Part shown: one piece after another, positions 467 through 36,162 of the stretch
Position numbering within the stretch: position 1 is the first letter of the stretch
Layout: each line of letters starts with the position of its first letter
DNA from: Deltaproteobacteria bacterium
Lineage (GTDB): Bacteria; Myxococcota_C; UBA6777
Direction: 5' to 3'
Assembly (NCBI GenBank): GCA_002731275.1
Contig: PCBK01000157.1
Location: forward strand, 1 to 55,145
Length of the DNA: 55,145 bases
Made by a program: the position numbers and the translations under genes
The notes under the pieces: generated by a model
Seen by the model: the letters and a program-made list of their open reading frames with translations, nothing else
Told to the model about the DNA's origin: nothing
Database searches by the model: none

Positions 467-1492
467 TCATAGACTCATACGAATCGAACCATCAGATACA
501 TGCTCAGGGATGACTCCCCTACGCTCATCAGTGGTGGAGTCCACCAAACGATATGAACCAAGCCCCTGTGCGGTGCTCTTGCCAGCGTGAAGCAGCTGCC
601 CAACCTGCAAAAGTGGCCATAACTCCGCAATCGCATCACCTTCCCACACAATATCTCCCCTCAAACCTCCCAACCATACCTCGCGTCGCTGCCTTCCGCT
701 CGACCTCTTCTGATCAAAGATCCTTAGCTCCGAAGACCTCACCCCAACCGTCGACGCACGCTCCAACAAACCGCGAAAGTCAACATCCAACTCCACACCA
801 CAATGGAACGCCAGAACGGATGATAATCGTGACAACAAACTACGCACGAATGCTCGAAACGAAAGCTCCCTCAGCAACTTCTTCTTCTCTTCAATACGAA
901 GCGGCGTCTCAAACCGGACATGACATTCACGACTCACAGATGACGGTGCCTCAAACAATGAATCCGCCTCACACCCCCTCAAGGACACAAACTGCCTGTC
1001 TTCATGATGCCACAACAACGTCCCCAACGCCGGACCAAGAGACTCTCGCACCTCCAAAAGTTGGAAGGGAATCCATCTCCCCTTCCGACCAAGTCCACGC
1101 TCAGCCATCCACTCGACTGCCGCCACAATGTGAGGCATATAGTCCAGACCACGCCCAAACAACGTCATCGAAAAATACAAATCATCCCCCCTCTTCCAAT
1201 CACCATCGTGAAAAGGAGGTGGGATCAAAACAAATGGATGTGGAAGAAATTGGTTCTTCCGCAAACGCTTGGTCTCTTCGGAGACAGGTGTCTCAAATAG
1301 ATAGACATAGGCACAAGGAGAAGCCAGCTCACAACGCTTTTTATCCTCACAACGTCTCGGACACCCTGCTCGCAATAACGCATGACCAAACGCCCCACGG
1401 ATCACTGGTCCCAAAAATCTTGGCATAGCTCCACTTCCCAGCGCTCGCAAACGAAATGTCATACGACCAACACGTAGCTTATCTAATGAATA
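467..1492 (-). CDS. cas6: Cas6-family CRISPR RNA processing endoribonuclease
   Basis: Cas6 cuts the CRISPR precursor transcript inside each repeat, leaving a short repeat-derived 5' tag on each crRNA. The 341-residue length fits the family. A cysteine cluster (C45, C49, C55, C61) followed by an aromatic YVYLFE stretch is typical of the PF10040-like branch, and the C-terminus carries a glycine-rich loop (HAGKSTAQGLGSY, about 302-314), the RAMP signature. I chose the ATG at 1492 because AAGGAGGAGCG precedes it; a longer frame to 1522 lacks a ribosome site. No other cas gene is visible in the window. The gene lies next to degenerate repeats (293-454) and 27 kb from the main array. The catalytic residues of this branch are poorly conserved and I did not assign them. 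Confidence 0.8.
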   Translation of the reverse strand, partial: YSLDKLRVGRMTFRLRALGSGAMPRFLGPVIRGAFGHALLRAGCPRRCEDKKRCELASPCAYVYLFETPVSEETKRLRKNQFLPHPFVLIPPPFHDGDWKRGDDLYFSMTLFGRGLDYMPHIVAAVEWMAERGLGRKGRWIPFQLLEVRESLGPALGTLLWHHEDRQFVSLRGCEADSLFEAPSSVSRECHVRFETPLRIEEKKKLLRELSFRAFVRSLLSRLSSVLAFHCGVELDVDFRGLLERASTVGVRSSELRIFDQKRSSGRQRREVWLGGLRGDIVWEGDAIAELWPLLQVGQLLHAGKSTAQGLGSYRLVDSTTDERRGVIPEHVSDGSIRMSL

Positions 1493-2091
1493 CATTCGCT
1501 CCTCCTTGTATATGTTTCTCAAAGTCTCACATACTCAAAACGAAAAATGACCTCCAATCTGACAAATAACGATAGCAAGTGATCACCAACAGGCAACAAA
1601 CACTCCTTTAAACTTTTACGAACACACAAAATAAACCACATCTTGACCTAATAAACAAGCTCAAAACAACAAAACCAGCTTACTCCCTCACATGGTAGGA
1701 CAATACATCACAAAAAAGTTTGTCAGATCTGTTCCGCGCCGTTCGTTTTCATGTATTTGACTCAAAAAAACACATGAAAAATAAAGAGAAAAAAGTCGAA
1801 CTCATTCACTGCACGACGCGTAAAACATACCACAAGCCACAAAGGCTCAGTCCAAAAGAGGTCATCCAACGGGAAGAAGACAACACACAAAAGAAAGCAT
1901 GTCGCAGAGCATCAGGCAAGACACAACAAAGAGTCTTTGGGTCGCTCCCAATCACAAAACACAACACCCTGAATATCCGACATCATCGACACATACCTCT
2001 TCCTACAAGCTTCTTTTTTGAAAAAATACAAGCGAAGTGGAAGGTTCGTCTCCCCAACCATCGTCTTACCTATACAAGCAAGGAGGACACG
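1493..2091. other. Intergenic region, no gene seen
   Basis: This gap of about 600 bases lies between divergently oriented cas6 and the small plus-strand genes. It is A- and C-rich. An open frame runs through its second half, but only as an upstream extension of the zinc-ribbon gene at 2092, where the first good ribosome site lies. Promoters for both directions presumably sit here. I see no clear -35/-10 pair or dyad to place them. Confidence 0.4.
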
Positions 2092-3767: not shown

Positions 3768-4190
3768 ATGGTCGTTCGATTTGTATCCCAACACCCAGCC
3801 ATCATCGCAAGCAACGTCGCGCGAGAGCTTTTCGAAGCCCTCAGCGACATCTATGTGGAGTTTGAACGCACAAAAAGATACAAGGCTGAGTTGGCGTCAG
3901 CGCTCTTTGAGTTCGAGTGTGCGCTTGAACAATTCCTGTTGTGCATCAAGTCTAACACTGCGCAAGTTGAGATCATCTGTGACATGCTCATGTCGACACC
4001 TCCAGGCGAAACACAAGACATTCTTGTCGCAAGCCTGCTCTCCATACGCAACCAAGAAGACAACTATTTTGAAGAACGACGTTCACCAAGATTTGAAGAA
4101 CGACGTTCACCAAGATTTGCAAGTCGCCGCTCTGAGAGAGCTGACAATCGACGTTCACCAAGATCTAGAAGAAGCCGTTCTGCGAGATGA
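3768..4190 (+). CDS. Protein with five C-terminal RS-type octapeptide repeats
   Basis: This 140-residue protein has a helical N-terminal part (1-100) with no recognised family and a tail of five 8-residue repeats. These begin FEERRSPR twice and degrade to FASRRSER, ADNRRSPR and SRRSRSAR. In DNA they are five 24-base tandem units (4068-4187), the first two identical. The tail is strongly basic and rich in Arg-Ser pairs, suiting RNA or DNA binding. GAGGAGCTCCCACA precedes the ATG. The repeats can vary in number by slippage. It is the last gene of plus-strand block A. Function unknown. Confidence 0.65.
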   Translation: MVVRFVSQHPAIIASNVARELFEALSDIYVEFERTKRYKAELASALFEFECALEQFLLCIKSNTAQVEIICDMLMSTPPGETQDILVASLLSIRNQEDNYFEERRSPRFEERRSPRFASRRSERADNRRSPRSRRSRSAR

Positions 4191-28354: not shown

Positions 28355-28371
28355 TCCCCTAAAGAAGGCTG

Positions 28372-28951
28372 ACTTTAATGGGGCCGCCCTTTTTACGGGG
28401 CGGAGAGAGCCTTGAGCATCCAAACCTCCAAGGCGAGCGAGAGGCTGGCTTCAATGGGGCCGCCCCTTTTTATCGGGCGGAGAGGCTCGTGCGCAAGGCT
28501 ACCGTTCGGAGGCGACCGTGAAAGCTTCAATGGGGCCGCCCTTTTTACGAGGCGGAGAGTCCTTCAAGATGCTTGTGGTCCTTTGGGTCTTTCAGCCTGC
28601 TTCAATGGGGCCGCCCTTTTTACGGGGCGGAGAGCAAGTGATCAGTAACTTAAAGGATCTTTTGATTCACCGTGGCTTCAATGGGGCCGCCCTTTTTATC
28701 GGGCGGAGAGAGAGTAAAACGGCCTCATTCACACTTATCGATTTTTTACCGACGGAACTGCTTCAATGGGGCCGCCCTTTTTATCGGGCGGAGAGCTACC
28801 GGGAATATTGTGGAGAGCGGTAATGCACATACTAGCTTCAATGGGGCCGCCCTTTTTATCGGGCGGAGAGCAGCAAAACACACAACCGACCCCCCTGTCT
28901 TCCTAGAAGAGATAGCTTCAATGGGGCCGCCCTTTTTTATCGGGCGGAGAG
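28372..28951 (-). CRISPR. CRISPR array, eight 36-base repeats, seven spacers
   Basis: Repeats begin at 28372, 28448, 28524, 28599, 28675, 28760, 28835 and 28915. Most are 36 bases; the second and last are 37. Written on the plus strand they begin GCTTCAATGGGGCCGCCC and end TATCGGGCGGAGAG, with a CCGCCC/GGGCGG stem. Spacers are 40, 39, 39, 40, 49, 39 and 44 bases and are unrelated to one another. The minus strand ends ATTGAAGC, the usual 5' tag of mature crRNA, so I infer minus-strand transcription. The leftmost repeat is the most altered, as expected for the end far from the leader. No adaptation or effector gene is adjacent. Confidence 0.93.
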
Positions 28952-29037
28952 GGTTCACTTCCAAGTGTACACACCCAAAAGACTTTTTTCATCATATGCG
29001 AGCGTCTCACTTTTGCAACCCTTTTCAGCACTCCTCC
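28952..29037 (-). promoter_or_regulatory. Probable CRISPR leader with promoter, copy A
   Basis: The 86 bases right of the array match 34009-34094 without gaps at about 73 positions. On the minus strand TTGCAA (29018-29013) and TATGAT (28996-28991) stand 16 bases apart and are identical in both copies, while the bases between vary. This supports a promoter firing into the array. Some of this region could also hold an integration motif. Confidence 0.65.
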
Positions 29038-29095
29038 AATGCAAAATAAGCCACACACACAACACCTATCCTCCTACAAAAAAAAAAAGGAAAAA

Positions 29096-29401
29096 TCATT
29101 TTGCGAGCGTCTCCAGAGTTTTGCTCACCACGTCGACGCTCGCACTTTCTTCTGTTCTTGTCATCCATGGATGTTTAGCTAGCTGGATTGCTTCATCAAT
29201 GTAGGTGTTCAGATCACCATTTTCGAGGAGTATCTTGTACCATTTTGGTGTCTTCGTATGGTTTGGATCGGCTCTCCCTGCTCGTTGTTGAGAAGGGGTT
29301 CCCCACATACTGATCATAATCTCTCTCGTCACGGGATGACAGGCAACAAGACATCGCACAAAATCATCCCAGAGAGGACTAGGCTGCGTATCTTGCGCCA
29401 T
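29096..29401 (-). CDS. Hypothetical protein, second gene of a two-gene unit
   Basis: This 101-residue soluble protein has a helical pattern with several tryptophans (PLWDDFVRCLVACHP, MWGTPSQQ, KWYKILLENG) and no signal or membrane segment. GGGAGGTGAGTC precedes the ATG, and it overlaps the end of the upstream 131-residue gene by 23 bases, so they are translated together. It lies between the CRISPR leader and the CI-type repressor. Small protein pairs next to a repressor are often lysogenic-conversion genes. Function unknown. Confidence 0.6.
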   Translation of the reverse strand: MAQDTQPSPLWDDFVRCLVACHPVTREIMISMWGTPSQQRAGRADPNHTKTPKWYKILLENGDLNTYIDEAIQLAKHPWMTRTEESASVDVVSKTLETLAK

Positions 29402-31535: not shown

Positions 31536-32351
31536 GTGGATATCATCAACCTCCCAGGCAGACCCCCGGCAATGCTGGATCGAGACGTCGCAGAACTATA
31601 CGAGACAACCACCGGTCAGACTAACAGGGCTGCCAAGCGAAATCCTCGACGCTTTCCGGAGCCAAGCTATCGGTTCAAGGCGGTCAAGTCAGAACTATGC
31701 CAAATTGGCACAGTCCTTCAAAAGCGAGGACTTACCATCTCGGGACCGCATCCTTGGCTATACACGCAACACGGTTGTAACGCGTTAGCCTTTGTTCTCA
31801 ATTCCGACATTGCGATCGAACGCTCTGTCCAGATTGTTGAAACGTTCACAGCACTGGAACAAGGAAGGCTTGAAGAGTACATCGCCGAGAGAGTCGCGCA
31901 AGCGACTAGGGGTGATGAGATCAAACGACTCCTCCTTTTGGGTGCGCCTGCGGATTGGAGTGAGCGATTCCCTCGCGAATTCTGGGTCGAGCTTGCTCGC
32001 TTGCGACATTGGCACAAATACGATCCAGACAAGCACAACACGCCACAAGACGCAAAGTGGTGGGTCTCATGGACGATCTATCAACGTCTACCAAGCAATG
32101 TCTATGACGCGCTCAAAGAGATGAACCCGGCTGATGAGAACGGCAATCGCTCGCATAAACATCATCAATTTATGCGAACGAGTGACGGTGACGAGGTGTT
32201 GAAAAATTTGGTCAGAGAAGCACTTCGCTTCATGCGTACATCGATAGACTGGTCGGATTTTGCTTGGCGGTGGGATCAATTGAGGCCTCGGCCAGGACAA
32301 CAGTTGAAAATGTTCCCAGCGCCAAAGCCAAGCCTGCAACCCGCCGTATAA
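31536..32351 (+). CDS. ORF6N-P63C domain phage protein
   Basis: The 271-residue protein has an ORF6N-like N-terminal domain (about 1-95): LPGRPPAMLDRDVAELYETT and RFPEPSYRFKAVKSELCQ. A P63C domain (about 135-245) follows, with FPREFWVELARLRHWHKYDP, SNVYDALKEMNPADENGN, HKHHQFM and LVREALRFMRTSIDWSDF. These domains recur in phage regulators and antirepressors. The start used is GTG 31536; no strong ribosome site is visible, so the true start may differ slightly. It closes the early rightward transcript after the antirepressor. Its target is unknown. Confidence 0.75.
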   Translation: MDIINLPGRPPAMLDRDVAELYETTTGQTNRAAKRNPRRFPEPSYRFKAVKSELCQIGTVLQKRGLTISGPHPWLYTQHGCNALAFVLNSDIAIERSVQIVETFTALEQGRLEEYIAERVAQATRGDEIKRLLLLGAPADWSERFPREFWVELARLRHWHKYDPDKHNTPQDAKWWVSWTIYQRLPSNVYDALKEMNPADENGNRSHKHHQFMRTSDGDEVLKNLVREALRFMRTSIDWSDFAWRWDQLRPRPGQQLKMFPAPKPSLQPAV

Positions 32352-32724
32352 CCCACAGCACCAACAACCCCACCCCCATCTTCAGACATATTCTCATTTA
32401 CCAAGAAAGGAAGGGGGGGGATATCACCCTCCCCTCAAAAAGAGATGCCAAAACCTAGGCATTGGACACAATACGCAAAACAAGAAAATAAAAACAATCC
32501 GGCATTTAGCGACATGTATGCGCTTAAGCGCACCCCCCTCTGAATCTGGAAGTCAGGAGACTTTTTGTTTGCACCTTGAAGCTTTGACGCTTTGGCTTGC
32601 GTCGATTTCTGCGGCTCGTGTCAAAGAAGAGACTCGCCCGATGCTACTCGGTACAAACCCTTGAACGACGTGCCTGGAATATAGGGAGCCTTGTTCCATG
32701 CAAGAAACATCAAGGACATACAGT
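32352..32724. other. Intergenic region with a perfect palindrome
   Basis: About 370 bases without a gene. TGCGCTTAAGCGCA at 32519-32532 is a perfect 14-base palindrome. TCAGACATATTCTCATTT at 32382-32399 is repeated exactly at 34644-34661, upstream of the DUF4041 gene. Runs of C and G flank these. The region may be a boundary of an inserted accessory segment. Confidence 0.4.
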
Positions 32725-32835
32725 ACTTCAATAGGGCCGACCTGTTTACTGAACGAAAGGATAAAGTGTAAGCCTTACACCTTGGGTGGAGCATGCAGTA
32801 CTTCAATCGGACCGCCCTATTTTAGGGGCAGAAAG
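32725..32835 (-). CRISPR. Two diverged CRISPR repeats with one 40-base spacer
   Basis: Units at 32725-32759 and 32800-32835 begin ACTTCAATAGGGCCGACC and ACTTCAATCGGACCGCCC and end near GAAAG, resembling the repeat of the array at 28.4 kb. The spacer between them is 40 bases, the size seen there. The minus strand of the second ends GATTGAAGT. They lie 10 bases past the stop codon of a membrane operon whose other end meets a third decayed repeat and a leader copy. Confidence 0.7.
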
Positions 32836-32845
32836 ACAGATGGTG

Positions 32846-33433
32846 CTACAAAGCAAGAACTTTTGTGTCCCCAAAGGTTTTGAACTCCCCAAGGGGTTTA
32901 GGGGATCTTTGCTGTAGCAGCATAGGATTTGTTTCGAACTCTTTCAAGTTGCCCATGAGTTCATCGGTCTTGTCTCTTTGTTCCCAATACTCTTTTACCG
33001 CTGCGTTGAATTTTTCAGCAAACATACTCGCCTCTATGAGGTACTTATCAGGAATGGGTCCATCTCCAGATAGGCCTTCTTTTTTTTGGGTTTCGACTGC
33101 CCACCTCTGGATTTCACGACCTATTTCCTCGACTCTTTGCGCTCTTTCTTCAAGTTCCACAATGGATTTTTCCAAAGCCCAAGTCCCAATAGATTGGATA
33201 AGAGTTGGGTTAATTTTCGTGCTGTAGTAAATGAAACCTACGATGCCAAGCGACAAAATGCCTATCATAGCTAAAATAGTACCAAAAAAGACGATAGGCG
33301 CTTCTATCGCGAAAAACACCATGTATGTCACCACAAAACCCAAAAAGAGAAGGCCCAACATCATGCGTGATTGCATTCGGAATGTTCCCCAAAGGGTATC
33401 TTTTGTCAGGGGAGGTTTTGGGTACTTTTTCAT
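32846..33433 (-). CDS. Two-helix membrane protein, second gene in CRISPR-flanked operon
   Basis: This 195-residue protein has two membrane helices (about 25-43 and 45-70) and a long cytoplasmic coiled-coil-like region (90-195). AGGAGGTGAGAAAGA precedes the ATG, and its first bases overlap the upstream gene (ATGA), so both are co-translated. Its stop is 10 bases from the CRISPR repeat at 32835. The pair is flanked on the far side by a decayed repeat and a leader. It may be an exclusion or defence membrane system. No family recognised. Confidence 0.65.
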   Translation of the reverse strand: MKKYPKPPLTKDTLWGTFRMQSRMMLGLLFLGFVVTYMVFFAIEAPIVFFGTILAMIGILSLGIVGFIYYSTKINPTLIQSIGTWALEKSIVELEERAQRVEEIGREIQRWAVETQKKEGLSGDGPIPDKYLIEASMFAEKFNAAVKEYWEQRDKTDELMGNLKEFETNPMLLQQRSPKPLGEFKTFGDTKVLAL

Positions 33434-33912
33434 TCTTTCTCACCTCCTGGCATTACTGCGAGAGGAAAAACTTCACGCCACTTCGCCCTAAGCAAAGCGA
33501 ACATGTTAAGAGTCAACAATATAGTTGATCCGGACATTAAAATCCAGGGAGCAACATGACGAAAGAAAAAGAAGATTGGTTTTGGTACGTTTGGAGGAAA
33601 GAGCCAGTTCGCAAAGGAAAGGCTCAACCAACTGAAAAACATACAAAGGCAAAAGAAAAGCGTTCCGTAGATCGTGTATTTTGACATTTGTCCAAATTCC
33701 TTTGGAACAAAGGAGTGGACGTTTTTCTCTGCTTCCTTCGCGGCTCTCTTTGCTTCCTTTCTTTTGCACAGCTCTATGGTGATAGCTACAGCTTGTTCGG
33801 TTGTGATTGTACGGTTTGGTGTGTTGAGATCGTCGCAGCCTACAGATTGGCCAATATCCTGAAACTCTTTCCACTCCAATTCCAGCTGCTTATAAAGAGC
33901 ATGTGCTTTCAA
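33430..33912 (-). CDS. Two-helix membrane protein, first gene in CRISPR-flanked operon
   Basis: The 160-residue protein has a charged N-terminal half (1-78) and two membrane helices (about 80-102 and 118-142). TTG appears to be the start codon, with AAGGAGATCGCA directly before it. The gene begins about 65 bases left of a decayed CRISPR repeat, with a strong hairpin (33948-33976) between. The 195-residue partner overlaps its end. The leader-like promoter at 34009-34094 points into this gene and is its most obvious promoter. No family recognised. Confidence 0.65.
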   Translation of the reverse strand: MKAHALYKQLELEWKEFQDIGQSVGCDDLNTPNRTITTEQAVAITIELCKRKEAKRAAKEAEKNVHSFVPKEFGQMSKYTIYGTLFFCLCMFFSWLSLSFANWLFPPNVPKPIFFFFRHVAPWILMSGSTILLTLNMFALLRAKWREVFPLAVMPGGEKE

Positions 33913-33947
33913 TGCGATCTCCTTCTTTCCTCTCCCTTATCTCCTAC

Positions 33948-33976
33948 AAGCCGATATTTAAGGGAAATATCGGCTT
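33948..33976. promoter_or_regulatory. Perfect 12-bp hairpin before the membrane operon
   Basis: AAGCCGATATTT (33948-33959) and AAATATCGGCTT (33965-33976) pair perfectly around AAGGG. In the leftward direction it lies between the decayed repeat and the start codon of the operon, so it could shape the messenger's leader, mark the joint of the inserted operon, or stop rightward transcription at the T run that follows at 33988. Confidence 0.55.
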
Positions 33977-34094
33977 GTTCAATGGTCTTTTTTTTTTCGG
34001 ATGGAAAGGGATAACTTCCAAGCATTTACACCCAAAAGACTTTTTCCATCATATGTGAGTGTTTCACTTTTGCAACCCTTTTCTGTGCTCCTCC
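33977..34094 (-). CRISPR. Decayed repeat plus leader-like flank, copy B
   Basis: On the plus strand GTTCAATGGTC followed by a T run and CGGATGGAAAG (33977-34008) matches the ends of the main repeat; the minus strand ends CCATTGAAC. Bases 34009-34094 match the flank of the main array at about 73 of 86 positions, with TTGCAA (34075-34070) and TATGAT (34053-34048) conserved at 16-base spacing. It is the leader end of a CRISPR locus whose other repeats now lie at 32725-32835. Confidence 0.6.
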
Positions 34095-34158: not shown

Positions 34159-34434
34159 TCAGTCACCGCTTACATGGCTACCACCACCGCTGCTGTGGAG
34201 AGGAACCACTTTTCTCAAACCTCCACCATCAACGACACCTCCGGATGCGGGTGTTGTAACTCTCTTTGTCCCGCCGCCAGTGTTTCCACCACCTATTGCG
34301 CCAACAACTCCGACAAGCTGTTGCAGCTTCGTCCCACCACCCGTGTTTCCACCATGACAACCAATGACAGCTGCATGAACATCTGCCACAAAAAACCCAG
34401 CGGCCAATACCAAACCAAAAATGAGCGTTCTCAT
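34159..34434 (-). CDS. Small secreted glycine-rich protein
   Basis: The 91-residue protein begins with a clear signal peptide (MRTLIFGLVLAAGFFVADVHA), cleaved after residue 21. The rest is glycine-, valine- and threonine-rich, with two copies of GGGTK and GGNTGGGTK stretches and few charged residues except Lys and Arg. A single cysteine (about 25) could be lost or lipid-free. GGAGGCAAAAG precedes ATG 34434. A secreted envelope peptide is likely, possibly a host-fitness or exclusion factor. No family recognised. The region 34435-34761 right of it holds no gene. Confidence 0.6.
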   Translation of the reverse strand: MRTLIFGLVLAAGFFVADVHAAVIGCHGGNTGGGTKLQQLVGVVGAIGGGNTGGGTKRVTTPASGGVVDGGGLRKVVPLHSSGGGSHVSGD

Positions 34435-34761: not shown

Positions 34762-36162
34762 ATGACATCAAGTGCGTATATGGCATTCGCTGTTTGCATG
34801 TTTGCAATAGCTGGCTTGCTCTTGCTTTTTTTCAGGAGCAGAGAAACGATTACTGAGAAAGATGAAATTCTCTCTCAACAACACGAGCTCCTCGTCCAAA
34901 TGCAACAAGCCTTAAAGAAGTACGGTCCTATCATTGATTTAGAACAGGAGCAACAACACCTTACCCAACACAACGCATCAATCAAGACAAAGATCAAGCA
35001 AGAACAAGCAAGATGGAATAGAGAACATCACCAACTCTTGGAGAAGCAACGTCAGCTACAAGAAAGCGTTTCTCTCTTGGAGGAAGAGGAATACATCCAA
35101 TCATTCGGCTTGTACAAACATCGTTATGATTTTGGTTCATCCAATCGCTACAAATTAAAACTTACGGAGGTGAGGGACGAACAAAAGAGGCTTATCAAAA
35201 ACGGAACAGCTGCTCGTTGCAATACAGATTGGCACGTTGGTGAGAGCCGTAAAAAGGGGAAGAAGCTCACAAACGACTTTCTCAAATTGCTATTAAGGGC
35301 CTTTAATGGGGAGTGTGACGTAGCCATCTCCAAGGTGAAATACAACAATGTCGATAGCACGGAGAAAAGGATCGAAAAATCCTGGGAAGCCTTGAACAAG
35401 CTCGGACAGCACTACCATACTGAAATCACGAGAGAGTACGTACACCTCAAACTTCAAGAGTTGTTCTTGGTCCACGAATACCAAGAGAAGAAACAGGAGG
35501 AAAAAGAAGAGGCCAAAAGGATCAAGGAAGAAATGCGAGAGGAAGAGAAGCTCCTCAAGGCCCTCGAAAAAGAAGAGAAGCAAGCCCAAAAAGAAGAGGA
35601 ACGATATATCAAGGCCCTCGAAAAGGCTAGAGCTGAGGCAAGAAAAGCAAGCCAAGACAAAATGAATGCGTACGATGCGAAGATAAGGCAACTCGAAGTT
35701 CTCTTGGCCGAAGCCGCGGAGAGAAAAGAGAGAGCTGTATCTCAAGCCCAGCTCACAAAGTCGGGCTTTGTCTACGTCATTTCGAATGTCGGATCTTTTG
35801 GTGAAAACGTCTTCAAGATCGGATTGACACGACGCCTCGAACCCAACGATCGAGTGAGAGAGCTGGGAGGCGCATCAGTACCATTCCCCTTTGATGTCCA
35901 CGCATTCATCTACTCCCATGATGCTCCTGGACTTGAGAACAAAATACACAAAGCACTTCACAACTACAGGATCAACTGGGTGAACAACCGCAAAGAGTTC
36001 TTTCGAGTTCCTCTCAAAACAATTGAGCAGGTTGTGTACCAGCATCAAAATGACATCGCAAAGCGCTTTGAATTTGAATACTTCCCCCAGGCTGAGGAGT
36101 TCAGAAAGTCCGAATCCGCAAGGTTGGCCGAAGCACAAACCACGGTGCAGGGTGCCTTTTGA
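34762..36162 (+). CDS. DUF4041-T5orf172 (GIY-YIG superfamily) protein
   Basis: The 466-residue protein has an N-terminal membrane helix (about 7-25), a coiled coil (35-110), a DUF4041-like domain (about 115-265), a second coiled coil (265-325), and a C-terminal T5orf172 domain (about 335-425). The latter reads GFVYVISN, VFKIGLTRRLEPNDRVREL and LENKIHKAL, a variant GIY-YIG fold with the arginine and glutamate in place. Such fusions are common in phages and islands; DNA binding or cutting at the membrane, for example against incoming DNA, is plausible. Activity is unproven. No strong ribosome site precedes the ATG. Confidence 0.75.
   Translation: MTSSAYMAFAVCMFAIAGLLLLFFRSRETITEKDEILSQQHELLVQMQQALKKYGPIIDLEQEQQHLTQHNASIKTKIKQEQARWNREHHQLLEKQRQLQESVSLLEEEEYIQSFGLYKHRYDFGSSNRYKLKLTEVRDEQKRLIKNGTAARCNTDWHVGESRKKGKKLTNDFLKLLLRAFNGECDVAISKVKYNNVDSTEKRIEKSWEALNKLGQHYHTEITREYVHLKLQELFLVHEYQEKKQEEKEEAKRIKEEMREEEKLLKALEKEEKQAQKEEERYIKALEKARAEARKASQDKMNAYDAKIRQLEVLLAEAAERKERAVSQAQLTKSGFVYVISNVGSFGENVFKIGLTRRLEPNDRVRELGGASVPFPFDVHAFIYSHDAPGLENKIHKALHNYRINWVNNRKEFFRVPLKTIEQVVYQHQNDIAKRFEFEYFPQAEEFRKSESARLAEAQTTVQGAF

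Follow-up and report, generated by a model that had tools for sequence, protein, structure and literature searches.

A two-gene membrane protein operon in the first spacer position of a phage-borne CRISPR locus

Can a CRISPR leader carried by a phage serve as the promoter of protein-coding genes? The question is raised by a locus in which two overlapping genes lie between a repeat that adjoins a leader (R1) and two further repeats enclosing one spacer (R2 and R3). A first-pass annotation of this DNA had placed the operon in a spacer position of a CRISPR locus, and we agree: it occupies the first one, between R1 and R2 (Table 1). We give a probability of roughly one half to the reading that these genes form an accessory (moron) operon of the phage that uses a captured CRISPR leader as its promoter, the repeats persisting as untranslated regions. 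The observations behind this leader-driven reading are the anatomy of the locus, the conservation of the promoter, the coding potential of the two genes, and the pattern of stem loss and retention among the repeats.

Table 1. Coordinates of the two CRISPR loci, the operon, and the cas6 gene in the window
Feature	Position	Strand	Description
cas6 gene	467..1522	-	PADLOC Cas6 model, E 6e-84; Pfam PF10040
Array 1	28371..28951	-	8 repeats CTCTCCGCCCGATAAAAAGGGCGGCCCCATTGAAGC and 7 spacers; younger copy of the shared CRISPR type
Array 1 leader	28952..29150	-	Host-like upstream sequence; upstream edge approximate
R3, divergent terminal repeat	32725..32759	-	Score 15; stem lost
Locus 2 spacer	32760..32799	-	Exactly 40 nt between R2 and R3
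R2, divergent repeat	32800..32835	-	Score 19; 6-bp stem kept
Gene 2	32846..33433	-	195 aa; two predicted membrane helices; Shine-Dalgarno site AGGAGG; ATGA overlap with gene 1
Gene 1	33430..33912	-	160 aa; two predicted membrane helices; TTG start; Shine-Dalgarno site AAGGAG
Perfect 14-bp inverted repeat	33946..33978	-	5' UTR hairpin or operator-like palindrome
R1, decayed repeat	33977..34008	-	Contiguous with leader; both repeat ends kept
Locus 2 leader	34009..34094	-	73/87 versus array 1 leader; 72/87 versus host C171 leader
Promoter-like TTGCAA-N16-TATGAT	34075-34048	-	Inside locus 2 leader

A temperate-type phage with two copies of a host CRISPR type

The window, by which we mean the whole stretch of DNA analyzed, is contig C146 (55,145 bp) of a 10.75-Mb bacterial genome assembly and matches the virus record IMGVR_UViG_2778261369_000001. 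A longer record, IMGVR_UViG_3300020386_000437 (74,576 bp), is the same phage, with 99.995% identity across the 20.6 kb compared. Terminase, tape measure, baseplate, and sheath-like genes in the window mark a contractile-tailed phage, and an integrase gene that the longer record carries at its far end, together with antirepressor-type genes in the window, suggests, from gene content, that it is temperate. No closely related phage was found with the sheath protein as the query. Both CRISPR loci sit well within the phage, flanked by tape-measure and sheath genes. At 4070 to 4188, 24-bp tandem repeats lie within or beside a small gene.

The repeat of array 1 is 36 nt long, begins with CTCTC, and has a consensus Cas6-type fold (6-bp stem, 8-nt loop, -13 kcal/mol). 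The same repeat type occurs in the host-bin contigs C171 (68 repeats) and C136 (13 repeats), and the C171 leader is 88% identical to the array 1 leader over 186 bp, repeat counted in. Array 1, which is intact and apparently usable, fits the virus-borne mini-CRISPR type with a host-like leader and host-type repeats; its 7 spacers exceed the 1 to 2 usual for viral mini-arrays. Mini-arrays that serve in interviral conflict have spacers that match related viruses. Phage records contained no match to array 1, a search of viral contigs with stretches from two of its seven spacers returned this phage alone, and the host spacers gave no convincing protospacer in the phage.

The array 1 and host leaders are identical at 81 of 87 positions. 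The locus 2 leader is less like either of them, which makes locus 2 the older or more distant copy. Part of the likeness appears as a direct repeat of 105 nt (28933-29037 and 33990-34094, 84%). Two acquisitions of one host CRISPR type seem to have left the phage with an old and a young copy, now 5 kb apart.

Which Cas proteins could act on these repeats bears on any role for them. The host I-B locus on C79 encodes cas8b, cas7b, cas5b, cas3, and cas6, but the array beside it is built from another repeat, which ends in AGATTAAAAC; the locus is therefore an unlikely partner, and we dropped it as the cognate system. The host also has Cmr-type III-B genes on C122, and a PF10040 search of the genome found two Cas6 genes only, that of the I-B locus and the one at the left end of the window. 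A 39% homologue of the window Cas6, from a member of the same family, belongs to a locus with a reverse transcriptase, cas1, and an array ending ATTGAAAC, a repeat end that resembles ATTGAAGC in the phage and host repeats. At L066 (relative G003:C183, 8907-16760), in a bacterium of the host's family, a Cas6 gene lies beside a reverse-transcriptase/primase-like fusion, cas1, and a ATTGAAAC-type array. The variable spacer lengths (34 to 64 nt) are also compatible with type III, and, as far as sequence can tell, the host III-B genes and the window Cas6 are likelier partners than I-B, with this Cas6 possibly cognate to the ATTGAAGC repeats of phage and host. Three 35-nt GGGGGCATTCATGTCCCCCGATAGCCCTAAACCAA repeats at 280 to 470, considered as a third CRISPR array, were rejected as a dispersed host element: they match C47 at 92% over 181 bp, and copies of the element occur on about a dozen host contigs. 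Because the cas6 gene adjoins this element, the left contig end may be host DNA rather than phage.

Anatomy of the second locus

The first-pass annotation had described a leader-like flank with a promoter, and the match to the leaders of array 1 and the host, with the promoter-like pair kept, bears this out. The two hexamers, their 16-nt spacing, and the flanking blocks are unchanged in all three leaders; leader 2 differs at 14 to 15 of 87 sites. Sameness of the hexamers has a chance probability of about 12% (0.84^12) and is not significant alone. The pair is the sole promoter-like site on the operon strand from the upstream gene to the operon. The leader core matched this phage alone among viral and genome contigs. 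A small glycine-rich protein with a signal-peptide-like start is encoded at 34159 to 34434 on the minus strand; since this same-strand gene for a small secreted protein ends 64 bp upstream of leader 2, read-through into the operon is possible.

Repeats were scored against the 36-nt repeat of array 1, and six Markov-shuffled copies of the window reached 11 at most. R2 and R3 score well above this, so the proposal of two further repeats that resemble the array at 28.4 kb and enclose a 40-base spacer stands, although both differ by about 25 to 30% from the consensus. For R1 the outcome was divided: its score of 8 is at chance level alone, and it is credible as a decayed repeat because it borders the leader, where a first repeat is expected, and retains both repeat ends. 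All three repeats of locus 2 begin with CTTTC, as opposed to CTCTC in array 1, and R2 and R3 end with GAAGT, so the three look like one lineage distinct from array 1. In R1 the Cas6-type stem is replaced by a run of A (-0.1 kcal/mol versus -13 for the consensus). R2 folds at -9.7 kcal/mol with the consensus stem and 8-nt loop, including one C-to-U change that preserves pairing; that just one R2 change falls in the stem has a P value of 0.11 to 0.16 and is not significant alone. Locus 2 resembles a CRISPR array in its host-type related repeats, regular spacer, and leader adjoining the first repeat; it departs from one in that its repeats are not near-identical with only spacers between them, as 1,141 bp and two genes extend from R1 to R2. 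The stretches after R2 (32760-32799) and R3 (32685-32724) begin nearly alike (ACTGCATG and ACTGTATG), as though the repeat unit extended further there. A palindrome in the 40-nt spacer has no further copies as operator sites. The spacer search proposed in the first-pass annotation yielded no target, the first 20 nt matching this phage alone among viral contigs.

Further parts of that annotation also agree with our results, namely a strong hairpin after R1, two overlapping membrane protein genes, and the start of R2 at 10 bases past the second stop codon. The hairpin has a predicted energy of -18.9 kcal/mol (z -5.7). Whichever way it is read, its 14-bp stem has no T-run directly after it, and the hairpin is therefore no plain terminator. 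Its exact arm has no other copy in the window and is not repeated as an operator site. Both genes have good Shine-Dalgarno sites, their annotated frames are the best coding of the six frames, and each protein contains two hydrophobic stretches. A structure model of the gene 2 product has long helices, predicted to be cytoplasmic, beyond the membrane helices; single-sequence models of both proteins (pLDDT 73 and 75) gave no significant fold match. Searches with the operon proteins in viral contigs, phage and plasmid records, Pfam, PHROGs, NCBIfam, PADLOC, and sampled relatives found the same phage alone, as did a search of genome contigs with the gene 1 protein, and Rfam gave no match. Phage moron operons are short accessory operons that run antiparallel to their neighbors in temperate phages and have a dedicated promoter. 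The operon resembles them in running antiparallel to the neighboring genes at 31536-32351 (ORF6N/P63C) and 34762-36162 (T5orf172), and the promoter-like site in the leader is its candidate promoter; it would differ from the usual moron in apparently taking a CRISPR leader for this purpose.

No empty site or relative of the site turned up in any collection searched, viral and genome contigs included, and no related phages with and without the operon were found for comparison. The two edges share no direct repeat longer than 6 bp that could mark an insertion footprint. Insertion of the operon, the first-pass reading, is thus inferred from anatomy.

Weighing the explanations

Under the leader-driven reading, locus 2 would descend from a host-type CRISPR locus that the phage took up long ago and would now work as an expression unit. 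From the promoter in the leader, a leftward transcript would start some 30 to 40 nt before R1, and the 5' end of the operon mRNA would survive because R1 has no stem for Cas6 to cut. The strong hairpin and a Shine-Dalgarno site would follow, and then the two translationally coupled membrane genes. Since the stem of R2 persists, Cas6 may still cleave at that repeat. Such a cut could fix where the mRNA ends on its 3' side and free a single crRNA-like tail, which might act as a crRNA or as a decoy. The operon would be expressed in lysogeny, where its products most likely alter the cell envelope or exclude other phages. That all of this holds together, with one transcript giving two membrane proteins and a guide-like RNA, the CRISPR leader turned into a lysogenic-conversion promoter, R1 disarmed, and R2 kept for Cas6 trimming, is quite unlikely in our estimate.

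The same anatomy could be a plain relic, in which the phage gained a host-type array on two occasions, the earlier array has since degenerated and received an unrelated moron operon, and the CRISPR parts are unused. This possibility carries some weight but is doubtful. The loss of the R1 and R3 stems, the resemblance of R3 to an ordinary degenerate terminal repeat, and the failure to find a spacer target would all be expected of it, whereas the unchanged promoter and adjacent leader blocks in three leaders and the kept stem of R2, neither of them significant alone, speak for continued use. A third explanation would have the leader and R1, and R2 with the spacer and R3, come to flank the operon by independent recombination without ever having been one array. 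It would fit the search outcome, in which neither a duplicated target site nor an empty site turned up, but we hold it very unlikely, given the CTTTC start common to R1 through R3, the GAAGT end common to R2 and R3, and their placement on the same strand in the right order.

Two further alternatives draw on known RNA-based systems. Solitary repeat units that act as RNA anti-CRISPRs include the bicistronic acrIC5-racrIC1 locus (PMC10651486), a precedent for joint transcription of the operon and R2, where R2 by itself or together with the spacer would be an RNA decoy for host Cas6 or Cas7. As in Racr units, a phage-encoded divergent repeat, structured by virtue of the R2 stem, comes directly after a protein gene, probably on one transcript, and the phage setting, an upstream promoter, and a host with matching arrays suit this explanation. 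We judge it unlikely, however: a Racr unit is a solitary repeat with a promoter within about 250 bp, and at locus 2 the predicted promoter, in a CRISPR leader, lies about 1.2 kb upstream beyond two genes, and there are two repeats with a spacer. The operon contains no known acr gene, its membrane proteins lack recognized relatives, and the apparently usable 8-repeat array in the same phage fits poorly with a block on the system. In creTA modules, two divergent degenerate repeats flank one spacer beside a gene (PMC8501985), an arrangement that R2, the spacer, and R3 share downstream of the operon, so that a CreA-like guide RNA could direct a host effector to repress the operon promoter. This is highly improbable. 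The spacer seed (nt 1-5 and 7-11) is not complementary to the adjacent promoter, its fit to the leader and 5' UTR is at chance (1,967 of 2,000 shuffled spacers do as well), and neither the I-B cas locus nor the rest of the phage contains a 9-nt seed match; CreA-like self-repression was accordingly rejected. Moreover, the toxin of creTA is an RNA, whereas the genes of locus 2 encode membrane proteins and lie in a phage.

Relation to known phage-borne CRISPR loci and significance

Alongside the bicistronic acr-racr RNA, the nearest precedents for the leader-driven reading are the virus-borne mini-CRISPR arrays with host-like leaders of Sulfolobales viruses SPV1 and SPV2 (PMC6858448), which combine a leader and host-type repeats in a virus, a promoter in the leader, and reliance on host Cas proteins, a pattern that array 1 fits. 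Unlike those arrays, locus 2 has two protein genes in its first spacer position, divergent repeats, no spacer target found, and a bacterial host. In Clostridioides difficile, CRISPR arrays, some of them in prophages, lie beside genes for small membrane type I toxins (PMC6563280). Proximity of prophage CRISPR arrays to membrane-protein genes is common to both cases, but in C. difficile short toxin genes and their antisense antitoxins adjoin the arrays, whereas the genes of locus 2 are longer and lie between the leader and the repeats. A narrow search of open-licence literature found no genes expressed from a CRISPR leader, which is a weak sign of novelty.

If the leader-driven reading is true, phage-borne CRISPR loci can be exapted for protein expression, beyond their roles in interviral targeting or as decoys, and host Cas6 could shape phage mRNAs. 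An immune locus would then have been put to unusual use as a gene switch.
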